The notes beneath the pieces were generated by a model that saw only the letters and a program-made list of their open reading frames with translations, was not told the DNA's origin and searched no databases. From assembly GCA_946644025.1 (NCBI GenBank), contig CAMPCG010000120.1:1-8136 (forward strand): a stretch of DNA of 8,136 nucleotides, in the 5' to 3' direction. Position 1 is the first letter of the stretch. Each line of letters starts with the position of its first letter. The DNA comes from an uncultured Prevotellaceae bacterium. Lineage in GTDB: Bacteria; Bacteroidota; Bacteroidia; Bacteroidales; Bacteroidaceae. Positions 4,673 to 7,380 of the stretch are shown here, one piece after another. A program made the translations under genes and the position numbers.

Positions 4673-5224
4673 TCATTCCTCCACCGGCACGATGTAGGGC
4701 GGCTGTTCGGGCATCATCAGCTGGTTCTCCTCGTCCTGGCTGAGCACCTTGAGCACGTTGCTCTGCCGGCACAGCTCGGTGAGGTTGCTGGAGCTGGACA
4801 TGGCCCTGAACTTCGCGTCGGTCAGTTCCTTTTCCAGCCGGCTTATCTCGATGACGTCCTGCTGGCACTGGTAGCGCACTCCGACGTAGACGCAGGTGAG
4901 GAGCACTACGAGGACGATGAACCAGACGTAGTGTCTGACGAGTGCCAGGAGGTAGTCTCCACCCACTATCTGCCTCAGTGTCAGCGTGCCTGTGGGGGCA
5001 TCGTCGTCTTCGCTGGCCTGCTCCTTGAGCTGGCGCAGGGTCTTAGCCCCCCCTACTGCCCCCGAGGTCGAAGCCCCTGAGGCCCCTGAAGCCCCCCCTA
5101 CTGCCCCCGAGGGGGCTTCTATAGTTTCGCCGCTCTGGGAAGGGTCTATCGTGTCCCCCTCGGGGGACGAAAGGGGGGCCTCCTGGTCCTCTGGGATTTC
5201 TATAATCAGTTCAGGGTCTTTCAT
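4673..5224 (-). CDS. ftsL: FtsL-like divisome protein with an N-terminal repeat-encoded extension
   Basis: FtsL is a bitopic membrane protein that joins FtsB/FtsQ and helps activate the septal synthase FtsW-FtsI. The 183-residue product has a conserved core starting at LTLRQIVGGDYL (about 81-92), a membrane span around 98-117 (HYVWFIVLVVLLTCVYVGV), then a heptad-like coiled-coil region (about 121-162, SRLEKELTDAKFRAM) and a short Pro-rich end. I recognise this core from Bacteroidetes FtsL-like proteins of roughly 110-120 residues. Here about 80 extra residues precede it. Residues 15-59 (EAPLSSPEGDTI...SGAVGGA) are Ser/Pro/Gly-rich and encoded by an 89-nt repeat also found in rsmH. The ATG at 5224 is chosen because it lies 10 nt after the rsmH stop with AAGAGAAAAG upstream; an in-frame ATG at 5266 would lie inside rsmH. 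Confidence 0.9.
   Translation of the reverse strand: MKDPELIIEIPEDQEAPLSSPEGDTIDPSQSGETIEAPSGAVGGASGASGASTSGAVGGAKTLRQLKEQASEDDDAPTGTLTLRQIVGGDYLLALVRHYVWFIVLVVLLTCVYVGVRYQCQQDVIEISRLEKELTDAKFRAMSSSSNLTELCRQSNVLKVLSQDEENQLMMPEQPPYIVPVEE
5092..5180 (-). repeat. 89-nt coding-compatible repeat element, copy in ftsL
   Basis: This segment matches 5639-5727 in rsmH at 85 of 89 positions with no gaps. It is framed by two short GC palindrome-like blocks, CCCCCGAGGGGG (5104-5115) and CCCCCTCGGGGG (5155-5166), which are also reverse complements of each other and could pair across a 39-nt loop. Read in the ftsL frame it encodes PLSSPEGDTIDPSQSGETI followed by EAPSGAVGG. Downstream coding sequence (5041-5091) consists of partial CCCCTGAGG/CCCCCTACTG-like duplications, as if the edge had been copied repeatedly. 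Confidence 0.9.
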
Positions 5225-5234
5225 TGCTTTTCTC

Positions 5235-6341
5235 TTATCGCTTGTCGTCCGACACTTTTTCGGCAATGCGCAGCTTGGCGCTGCGGCTGCGGGGGTTGCG
5301 TGCCAGCTCCTCGTCGGAGGGTGTCACCACCTTATTATTAATAATGTGTAGCGGGGCCTTCACCCGTCCGAAGAAATCCTTCTCGGTGTGTCCCTCGACG
5401 TTGCCGCTTCGCATGACGTTCTTCACCATGCGGTCTTCCAGCGAGTGGTAGGTGATGACCACCAGCCGTCCGCCGGGGCGCAGCAGCTCTGTGGCCGAGG
5501 TGAGCATTTCGCGCAGCACCTCCATCTCCCTGTTCACTTCTATGCGCAGGGCCTGGAAGAGCTTGGTGGCGTCCTTCTTCCAGCCAAAGGCCCACGAGGC
5601 CTCCAAAGGCGAGCCCCCCCCTACGGCCCCCAAAGCCCCCCCCCCTACGGCCCCCGAGGGGGCTTCTATAGTTTCGCCGCTCAGGGAAGAGACTATCGTG
5701 TCCCCCTCGGGGGACGAAAGGGGGGCCTTGCCCTCGGGGGACGAAAGGGGGGCCTTGCCCTCGGGGGACGAAAGGGGGGCGTTTATTGCCCTTAGCAGTT
5801 GTCCGGTAGTCTCTATGGGCTGCTGCTGGCGGGCCTTCACGATGGCCTTTGCCAGGCGTCGTGCGTCGGCCAGCTCGCCGTAGAGGCGGAAGATGTCGGT
5901 GAGCTGCTGCTCGTCGTATCCGTTCACCACGTCGGCGGCGGTCTTGCCGGCGCGGCGGTTCATGCGCATGTCGAGTGGACTGTCGAAGCGGAAGGAGAAT
6001 CCGCGGCTGGCATCGTCGAAGTGGTGCGACGACACGCCCAGGTCGGCCAGTACGCCGTCCAGACAGTCTACACCGTAGTAGCGCATCCAGTTCTTCACAT
6101 ACCTGAAATTGCTGCGCACGAAGGTGAAGCGGTCGTCGGCAGCGATGTTCTTCTCAGCGTCGGCATCCTGGTCGAAGGCGTAGAGGTGGCCCTCCGGACC
6201 CAGCCGGCGCAGTATCTCGCCCGAGTGTCCGCCGCCACCGAAGGTCATGTCGGCATAGACGCCGCCGGGCTGAATGTCCAGCCCGTCGACACTCTCCTGA
6301 AGGAGTACCGGTACGTGATATGTCCCTGCCGTCGTTGCCAT
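5235..6341 (-). CDS. rsmH: 16S rRNA (cytosine-1402-N4)-methyltransferase RsmH (MraW) with an internal repeat-derived insertion
   Basis: RsmH uses S-adenosylmethionine to methylate N4 of C1402 in the 16S rRNA decoding centre. The 368-residue product starts MATTAGTYHVPVLLQE and shows ADMTFGGGGHSGEIL (30-44, SAM loop), FDQD (56-59), VLADLGVSSHHFD (97-109), RGFSFRFDSPLDMRMN (113-128), ALRIEVNREMEVL (264-276), GGRLVVITYHSLEDRMVK (290-307) and RNPRSRSAKLRIAEK (348-362). Residues about 188-254 are not family sequence: three tandem APLSSPEGK/D units, then the 89-nt element peptide, then Gly/Ala-rich duplications ending near WAFGW. They sit between the helical subdomain (QLLRAI) and KKDATKLFQALR, where relatives carry only a short loop, which accounts for the excess over the usual 300 or so residues. 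The ATG is 13 nt after the mraZ stop with AAAGAGG in the gap. Confidence 0.97.
   Translation of the reverse strand: MATTAGTYHVPVLLQESVDGLDIQPGGVYADMTFGGGGHSGEILRRLGPEGHLYAFDQDADAEKNIAADDRFTFVRSNFRYVKNWMRYYGVDCLDGVLADLGVSSHHFDDASRGFSFRFDSPLDMRMNRRAGKTAADVVNGYDEQQLTDIFRLYGELADARRLAKAIVKARQQQPIETTGQLLRAINAPLSSPEGKAPLSSPEGKAPLSSPEGDTIVSSLSGETIEAPSGAVGGGALGAVGGGSPLEASWAFGWKKDATKLFQALRIEVNREMEVLREMLTSATELLRPGGRLVVITYHSLEDRMVKNVMRSGNVEGHTEKDFFGRVKAPLHIINNKVVTPSDEELARNPRSRSAKLRIAEKVSDDKR
5639..5727 (-). repeat. 89-nt coding-compatible repeat element, copy in rsmH
   Basis: This is the second copy of the element described at 5092-5180, in the same orientation and the same reading frame relative to its host gene, with four substitutions and no indels. 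The paired GC blocks are at 5651-5662 and 5702-5713. In this copy the element edge at 5728-5780 has been extended by two more 27-bp units, and the other edge (5608-5638) by a second CCCCCTACGGCCCCC-type block and runs of eight and ten C residues. The element is open in four of six frames; a TAG stops the other two. Confidence 0.9.
5700..5780 (-). repeat. Three 27-bp in-frame tandem repeats in rsmH
   Basis: Each 27-bp unit encodes APLSSPEGK (the last ends in D). The two units at 5727-5753 and 5754-5780 are identical, and the third, at 5700-5726, differs only in its last codons and merges into the 89-nt element. Being a multiple of three, changes in copy number would keep rsmH in frame while varying the loop length of the protein. 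Confidence 0.9.
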
Positions 6342-7095: not shown

Positions 7096-7103
7096 GACAA
7101 TCT

Positions 7104-7187
7104 ACAAACCACGTCAGTGTTTGTATAAACGCCGACGTGGTTTGTACAAACGCCGACGTGGTTTGTACAAACACTGACAGCGTTTGA
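7104..7187. repeat. Four tandem 21-bp palindromic units (ACAAAC-N9-GTTTGT)
   Basis: Units lie at 7104-7124, 7125-7145, 7146-7166 and 7167-7187 without spacers. Units 2 and 3 differ at one position (ATAAAC against ACAAAC). Each unit has ACAAAC-like and GTTTGT-like ends as an imperfect dyad. Unit 1 is nearly the reverse complement of units 2 and 3, so the first two can pair as CAAACCACGTC with GACGTGGTTTG. The units have no start codon or ribosome site suggesting translation. They could be binding sites or simply a dispersed repeat. Confidence 0.85.
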
Positions 7188-7205
7188 AGATTTGAGGCCC
7201 AGCAA

Positions 7206-7281
7206 CCCACCCCCAAGAGACCCTCCCCCAAGAGACCCACCCCCCGGCCCCTCCCCAAGAGACCCTCCCCCGGCCCCTCCC
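7206..7281. repeat. C-rich direct repeats with AAGAGACCC cores
   Basis: The plus strand carries three AAGAGACCC cores (7215-7223, 7230-7238, 7257-7265) separated by C-rich linkers such as CCCTCCCCC and CCGGCCCCTCCC. The third copy is the left arm of the inverted repeat that follows. The minus-strand open frame across this stretch is only Gly/Leu-rich repeat translation and is not called a gene. Confidence 0.75.
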
Positions 7282-7370
7282 AAGGGAGGGGAGTAGAATG
7301 TTCTACCGCCTCTAAGTCTAACTACTCCCCTCCCTCACAGGGAGGGGCTGGGGGGAGGGTCTCTTGGGGA
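7252..7370. repeat. Large GC-rich inverted repeat directly behind the rel gene
   Basis: The left arm (7252-7296) and right arm (7322-7370) are near-complementary over about 45 bp: CCCAAGAGACCCTCCCCC pairs with its complement at 7352-7368, and GGGAGGGGAGTAG (7284-7296) with CTACTCCCCTCCC (7322-7334). Each arm also contains its own hairpin: CCCCTCCC-AA-GGGAGGGG (7274-7291) and CCCCTCCCT-CAC-AGGGAGGGG (7327-7347). The loop is 7297-7321. It begins 11 nt after the rel stop, so it could stop transcription or protect the rel mRNA 3' end, but there is no U-run. It resembles a short non-coding palindromic repeat element; I see no transposase. Confidence 0.85.
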
Positions 7371-7380
7371 ACGGTGGGGC

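Follow-up and report, generated by a model that had tools for sequence, protein, structure and literature searches.

An 89-nucleotide palindrome shared by rsmH and ftsL of an uncultured Prevotellaceae bacterium is probably a copy of a dispersed, in-frame hairpin element

Introduction

Why should two adjacent genes that code for unrelated proteins carry the same palindromic sequence in the same reading phase? The question is raised by rsmH and ftsL in contig CAMPCG010000120.1 of an uncultured Prevotellaceae bacterium (assembly GCA_946644025.1); the whole stretch analyzed, 8,136 nucleotides, is called the window. An initial annotation had described two 89-nt copies identical at 85 positions without gaps, sharing orientation and codon phase and open in four of the six frames. 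It had proposed a dispersed repeat at tolerated coding sites, with local duplication or gene conversion as the alternative, and had suggested that the host genome and its close relatives be searched for copies, their phase within genes and empty sites in orthologues. The description was confirmed when it was recomputed. The mismatches are located at positions 5102, 5136, 5143 and 5145, the codon phase is offset 2 in both genes, the same four frames are stop-free in each copy, and a repeat search of the window also returns this pair, with a length of 90 nt and 96% identity.

We consider it likely, with a probability of about 0.8, that the 89-nt sequence is a copy of a non-autonomous dispersed hairpin element in which a variable spacer separates two inverted arms. 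An enzyme recognizing the DNA hairpin would move copies in trans, and selection would remove most of the insertions that fall off a benign phase or outside loops. The surviving insertions would be translated, each adding an unstructured loop to a host protein able to tolerate it, and rsmH and ftsL would each have acquired their copies separately.

Dispersal among Related Genomes

Copies were counted in relatives of the window genome found through rsmH. The nearest named ones by this gene are Prevotella metagenome-assembled genomes (MAGs), several of them from rumen or abomasum. The 89-mer matched eight of 19 relatives at E<=0.01, with 44 matches in G002, 17 in G007 and 11 in G001. Of 299 genomes drawn from the G002 genus group, 55 contained the element (E<=1e-6). 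In an order-wide sample of 393 genomes of unstated genus composition, the reference G002 alone matched, at the stricter E<=1e-8. Five copy-bearing genomes had 28 to 69 matches apiece at 1e-5, a count that is based on up to 40 candidates scored per genome and includes half-copies and both strands of the palindrome. A search of viral contigs with a single exact 28-mer, taken from one element variant, matched none of them.

These results showed that the sequence is a dispersed multi-copy element in a subset of Prevotella-group genomes and not a local duplication. A chance match of the two window copies is also excluded because many copies exist in other genomes. That the rsmH and ftsL copies arose from one another by duplication or gene conversion could be argued, since the two are adjacent and slightly closer to each other than to any copy seen elsewhere. 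However, three copies in G261 are 92–93% identical to the window copy, and the flanks of the two window sites encode unrelated proteins. Given the dispersed copies such an event is not needed, and we regard it as very improbable.

Reading Phase inside Genes

A total of 172 near-full matches gave 165 unique copies from 35 sources including the window, the richest being G256 (35), G078 (30) and G002 (28). A copy passed a strict coding test when a codon-usage score, with 66,245 codons as the training set, placed the same coding frame on both sides with no stop, as was the case for 129 of the 165. Classified by orientation and phase, the strict set consisted of 110 copies in (-,2), 13 in (+,1), five in (-,0) and one in (-,1); when both orientations of the palindrome are pooled, 123 of 129 are in one phase. 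The two main phases mirror each other (APLSSPEGDTI..TIEAPSGAVGGA and APPTAPEGASIV..SIVPPSGGEGGA), and through the near-palindromy of the element either orientation reads as almost the same stop-free peptide, rich in Pro, Ser, Gly and Glu.

Absence of stop codons alone does not account for the choice of phase: none of the 129 uses frame (+,2), although 104 of 164 copies are open in it, and (-,0) is free of stops in 76. The phase claim rests on the strict set. A looser coding rule admitted 20 more copies, only in the two main phases, and its 143 of 149 is partly a product of this construction. The ftsL copy of the window counts as coding by the looser rule only, since neighboring low-complexity half-copies depress its codon score on one side. 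We infer that selection retains the hydrophilic, turn-rich reading; alternatively, a target preference may be tied to codon phase.

The five (-,0) copies (L228, L173, L265, L218 and L178, from four genomes) belong to one cluster of related membrane-type proteins, have an Arg-rich reading and represent roughly one shared site. L228, the sole host of the five that was searched, matches a permease family below the cut-off.

Structure of the Element and Its DNA Symmetry

An alignment of 162 distinct copies showed an arm, made of a C-rich tail and a hairpin, followed by a variable spacer and an inverted arm, with terminal inverted repeats visible. Folded as single-stranded DNA, the two window copies gave z-scores of -2.5 and -4.5. 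Near-full copies span 74 to 110 nt, and the length is 2 mod 3 in 161 of 165: 127 of 129 in the strict coding set and 34 of the 36 others (147 of 149 and 14 of 16 under the looser rule). Since copies that fail the coding test have it too, this length characterizes the family as such and is not just the outcome of selection at each site.

The closing base pair of the right arm is TA in 52 copies, GC in 50, CG in 42 and unpaired in two (n=146, with 19 of the 165 copies omitted as not fitting the pattern). It is thus complementary in 144 of 146, as compared with a mean of 64.3 and a maximum of 83 in 2000 shuffles. All three types are complementary, and G256, G078 and G002 each contain all three. 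The encoded variants among (-,2) copies are SPEGD (45), APEGA (35), PPEGG (32) and 5 other forms. Because the closing pair changes on both sides together and alters the amino acids, the DNA symmetry, rather than the peptide, seems to be what is kept, the encoded residues changing along with the base pair.

Host Proteins and Insertion Sites

The NCBIfam models named MutS2, RsgA, MiaB, LeuS, FGAM synthase, an amino-acid adenylation domain, DXS and DnaG above the curated cut-off among 20 host open reading frames (ORFs). Matches below it, some in ORFs cut by the end of the locus, were ClpA (992.1 vs 993.15), an NtrC-type regulator, an M3-type peptidase, an MsbA-like exporter that contains two copies of the element, glutamate synthase and an ADOP permease. 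Six ORFs were left unnamed, four with no match (L236, L283, L133 and L132) and two with weak ones (L136 and L135). PyrG, RsmH, FtsL and ArgS were placed as hosts by separate family or structure searches.

Alignments to PDB chains located the inserts between matched stretches, at query residues 136 and 162 versus 130 and 131 of the chain in PyrG, and at 187 and 257 versus 182 and 193 of 1wg8 in RsmH. In an AlphaFold model of RsmH built from 12 sequences, the mean predicted local distance difference test (pLDDT) score is 74, and residues 192–251 are below 50. The low-confidence loop agrees with the placement of the insert in the initial annotation and is consistent with an unstructured loop, although the shallow alignment also depresses pLDDT in this region. 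The RsmH loop is shorter in 10 of 11 aligned relatives; the closest of the 11, L001, has a different repeat, a TTGACCA-type inverted repeat, at the equivalent place. Short loops are found in orthologues that lack an insert where others carry the element. Together with the whole-genome copy counts, the frame statistics and the RsmH model, these short loops bear out the proposal of a palindromic repeat dispersed at tolerated coding sites.

At one orthologous site (L236, L183 and L286; about 1500–1577), a 77-nt copy is 97–99% identical in three genomes with flanking protein 78–100% identical, and this insert was perhaps recently transferred or retained. In ArgS of G297 (L377), the element is followed by in-frame tandem half-arms (PSGAVGGAV repeats), a local amplification of half-units inside a gene.

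Other Palindromes in the Same Loops

The loops that hold the element, denoted A here, were also found to hold B, a GC-rich palindrome such as CCCACCCCC...GGGGGTGGG, and C, the AGTGAAGAGT...ACTCTTCACT palindrome; B, C and half-copies were assigned by eye. ArgS was found in 24 of 30 genomes, and its loop between ARIRSILRK and KEIELIQK, readable in 22, contains A in six, B in two, C in four (three full, one half) and shorter or other content in ten. PyrG was found in 23 of the 30; its first loop, seen at 25 distinct loci (two genomes give two each), contains A in six, half A in one, B in four, another palindrome in one, half C in one and a short form in 12. The second PyrG loop carries A in G270 and G113, B in G203, G184 and G002, and the native short form in the others. 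Similarly, A and another family occupy the same loop in MiaB (A in G008, B in G060), in a ClpA-like protein (A in G191, C in G307) and in MutS2 (A in G256, C in G113), and the RsmH loop of G227 (L191) holds an A-derived half.

B and C are dispersed as well, C in eight of eight and B in six of eight genomes searched. The strict coding test was passed by 12 of 23 near-full C copies, in both orientations and with much alike peptides. All four near-full B copies at the cut-off are coding, a number too small to give a coding share.

The occupancy of these loops bears on the idea that the inserts encode a conserved peptide under selection for a protein-level function, such as a linker or binding motif. 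The near-constant peptide and the 97–99% identity of the three-genome insert, next to flanking protein at 78–100%, speak for it. Against this, two residues co-vary as base pairing dictates, and the same loops carry unrelated palindrome peptides or short native forms. A peptide function is, in our judgment, very unlikely.

Comparison of Close Genome Pairs

In the mra region, identity is about 97% within each of the pairs G307/G060 and G306/G070, and their syntenic blocks, chosen around A sites, are 91–96% identical over 259,879 aligned bases. When gaps of 24–599 nt were kept, 25 were found. Five are coding, and all five are multiples of three, as compared with five of the 20 elsewhere. Two of the coding gaps are swaps, in which ArgS has C in one genome and A in the other, and another gene has an AATGGAG-type repeat in place of A. 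The remaining three comprise a short sequence versus an A-derived piece, a short loop versus a palindrome of another family, and one that is not repeat-like. The gap list does not include the two differing sites of L165/L140. Outside it, a further gene carries the element at the same site in opposite orientations in G307 and G060, and a second site of this pair has A versus a B-like palindrome.

These differences could be allele exchange, the inserts passing between strains mainly by short-tract homologous recombination. Such exchange is plausible in dense communities, and 39 copy pairs lie at orthologous sites of different genomes. However, in the swap between G307 L330 and G060 L309 the flanks are near-identical right up to the insert, the element is inverted at one site, and 88 flank clusters are singletons in this sample of genomes. 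A comparison of 38 orthologous-site pairs gave a mixed answer, with some copy from the own genome closer in 23 and none in 15. This count is biased in favor of turnover, because a single orthologous copy competes with the best of several paralogues. Recombination as the main route is unlikely, though of the alternatives it is the one we weigh most heavily.

A broader view, tentative and held at somewhat less than even odds, is that unrelated palindrome families act as interchangeable cassettes in Prevotella. Fixed loops of ArgS, PyrG, MiaB, ClpA, MutS2 and RsmH would gain, lose, invert and regain inserts time and again, supplied by any palindrome that happens to be active in the lineage. Dyad symmetry would give a usable frame either way, and selfish hairpins would continually re-sculpt the surfaces of essential proteins.

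Search for a Mobilizing Enzyme

Repetitive extragenic palindromic sequences (REPs) and the REPINs and BIMEs built from them resemble the element in having two inverted hairpins with a spacer and in being multi-copy. The element could accordingly be a canonical REPIN or BIME moved by a REP-associated tyrosine transposase (RAYT). In related genomes, some Y1_Tnp loci have their own hairpin repeats on the flanks, and the available part of PMC6006769 describes frame-keeping REP insertions inside tnpA(REP) genes of subclass 2.4, which is abundant in Cyanobacteria and Bacteroidetes. Y1_Tnp genes occur in 15 of 19 genomes of one set and 13 of 16 of another. However, the element is beside none of 39 Y1_Tnp loci inspected over about 1.5 kb on either side (of 42 distinct matches), and copy-bearing G007 (17 element matches), G307, G207 and G297 gave no Y1_Tnp match, although these drafts may miss genes. 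The 5' GT[AG]G foot of REPs is also absent in the 60 of 162 alignment rows and the consensus inspected; instead, a variable CTAC is found 5' of the hairpin at one arm only, the other arm being untagged. Mobilization as a canonical REPIN by a RAYT is thus rather improbable. At L118, L119, L120 and L127, RAYT-like Y1_Tnp loci have their own repeated hairpins near by (CTGGCGGGTT.., GGACAGAC.., GGAATTAC..).

Features of the Window

The window covers the mra/dcw cluster on the minus strand, with genes for a penicillin-binding protein, ftsL, rsmH and mraZ, and presumably murE. Table 1 lists the element copies and their host genes. Since half-copies flank the full copy, the RsmH insert amounts to about 65 residues; the ftsL copy is likewise adjoined by a half-copy. 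The initial annotation did not list these half-copies. The right-arm tandem in rsmH, a 27-nt unit repeated 2.9 times, starts at 5704. No Rfam family reached the gathering score anywhere in the window.

Table 1. Location of the element, its partial copies and the host genes in the window.
Feature	Position	Strand	Remarks
Element, full copy	5092..5180	-	In frame in ftsL; minus-strand reading EAPLSSPEGDTIDPSQSGETIEAPSGAVGG
Element, full copy	5639..5727	-	In frame in rsmH; KAPLSSPEGDTIVSSLSGETIEAPSGAVGG
Two extra tandem right-arm half-units, 27 nt each	5731..5784	-	In frame in rsmH
Left-arm half-copy adjoining the rsmH copy	5615..5638	-	Repeat family D3
Left-arm half-copy adjoining the ftsL copy	~5046..5067	-	Repeat family D3, pair I25
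Whole RsmH insert region (approximate; ~residues 188-252)	5586..5780	-	Alignment with relatives and model
rsmH host gene, MraW methylase family	5235..6341	-	PF01795, E 1e-92
ftsL host gene, FtsL_2	4673..5224	-	PF19579, E 1e-12; ATG start picked by eye, ORF open to 5266

Other palindromic repeats are present in the window. A long array of 8-nt units (TCGTTATA), itself an inverted repeat and of a separate type, is located beside murE at 723–897. A GC-rich inverted repeat (CCCCAAGAGACCCTCCCCCAAG / CTGGGGGGAGGGTCTCTTGGGG) at 7205–7379, upstream of mraZ, resembles the palindromes of family B, which in other genomes are located in frame within genes. A 21-nt tandem palindromic unit (GTTTGTACAAACGCCGACGTG) is present in the same region, at 7103–7186.

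Discussion

Several points weigh against a dispersed hairpin element moved in trans. Transposition itself was not observed, and no mobilizing enzyme was found, Y1_Tnp being the one transposase family sought. No target-site duplication could be read in the close genome pairs or in orthologues with short loops, and at several sites the insert replaces a few native residues instead of being a pure insertion. The coding share of the copies may be no higher than the overall coding density in these genomes. Common descent links the 165 copies, which were taken from selected matches and in 93 cases from three genomes, and their counts therefore lack independence. The left arm is nearly invariant (GC in 152 of 156) and hence shows almost no covariation, and the covariation of the right arm could partly stem from a few master subfamilies. 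Finally, most named relative genomes are MAGs, and in assemblies of short reads repeats can be misjoined. An assembly artefact is nonetheless extremely improbable, as the ArgS and PyrG halves align in frame to the same orthologue across the insert in many assemblies.

If the hairpin-element reading holds, its implications reach beyond this locus. In-frame selfish palindromes are discussed mostly for Rickettsia in the available part of PMC10969869, and Prevotella would be a rich second system. Close Prevotella genome pairs that differ at single sites make the survival of mobile DNA in essential genes testable. The features to examine are the one benign phase, the symmetry that makes orientation nearly irrelevant and the loop sites. 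The system also bears on the rate at which loops of core enzymes turn over and on the enzyme that moves hairpins where no RAYT was found. In addition, an apparent insertion in a Prevotella protein family calls for caution, since it could be repeat DNA instead of a domain.

Parts of the pattern have precedents among known palindromes. The available part of PMC3733652 describes most REPs as intergenic, with a variable number within ORFs that include uvrA, recB and tRNA synthetase genes, and reports that two recB genes carry different REPs at nearly matching positions. In contrast to REPs, most of the copies examined here are in frame in genes, besides having no GT[AG]G foot and no Y1 gene next to them. 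The same source describes CGTC-tagged palindromes, short and seemingly without a dedicated transposase, in five phyla including Bacteroidetes, some of them being RPE-4 and RPE-6. Compared by description, CGTC precedes the right-arm hairpin of the TA type here (ORF strand), whereas the two other types, about as common, read CGCC and CGGC. As in PARCEL, protein-coding DNA has dyad symmetry; however, in the part of PMC2996958 available, PARCEL are 25-residue tandem domains in ORFs of no assigned function, and the present element is a dispersed insert, often in conserved enzymes. Of the traits of miniature inverted-repeat transposable elements, terminal inverted repeats are present and no target duplication could be read, with only Y1_Tnp considered as the parent.

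The closest likeness in behavior, already suggested by the initial annotation, which took the sequences to differ, and sustained here by description, is to Rickettsia palindromic elements (RPE). RPE are about 100–150 bp long. According to the available part of PMC10969869, they are palindromes of about 150 bp located in frame in unrelated genes, where they encode a conserved peptide. The present element is likewise a dispersed multi-copy palindrome of about 100 nt, in frame in many unrelated genes and missing from orthologues. It differs in phylum, the hosts of the RPE family being Rickettsiales and the relatives here Bacteroidota, in that unrelated palindrome families take turns in the same loops of several core enzymes, and in that both orientations give nearly the same peptide. 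A literature search, with most subscription papers outside its reach, returned no paper on in-frame palindromes in Prevotella. By analogy, the element can be regarded as a candidate new family of in-frame dispersed palindromes, RPE-like in behavior and REPIN-like in build, that we assign to neither.

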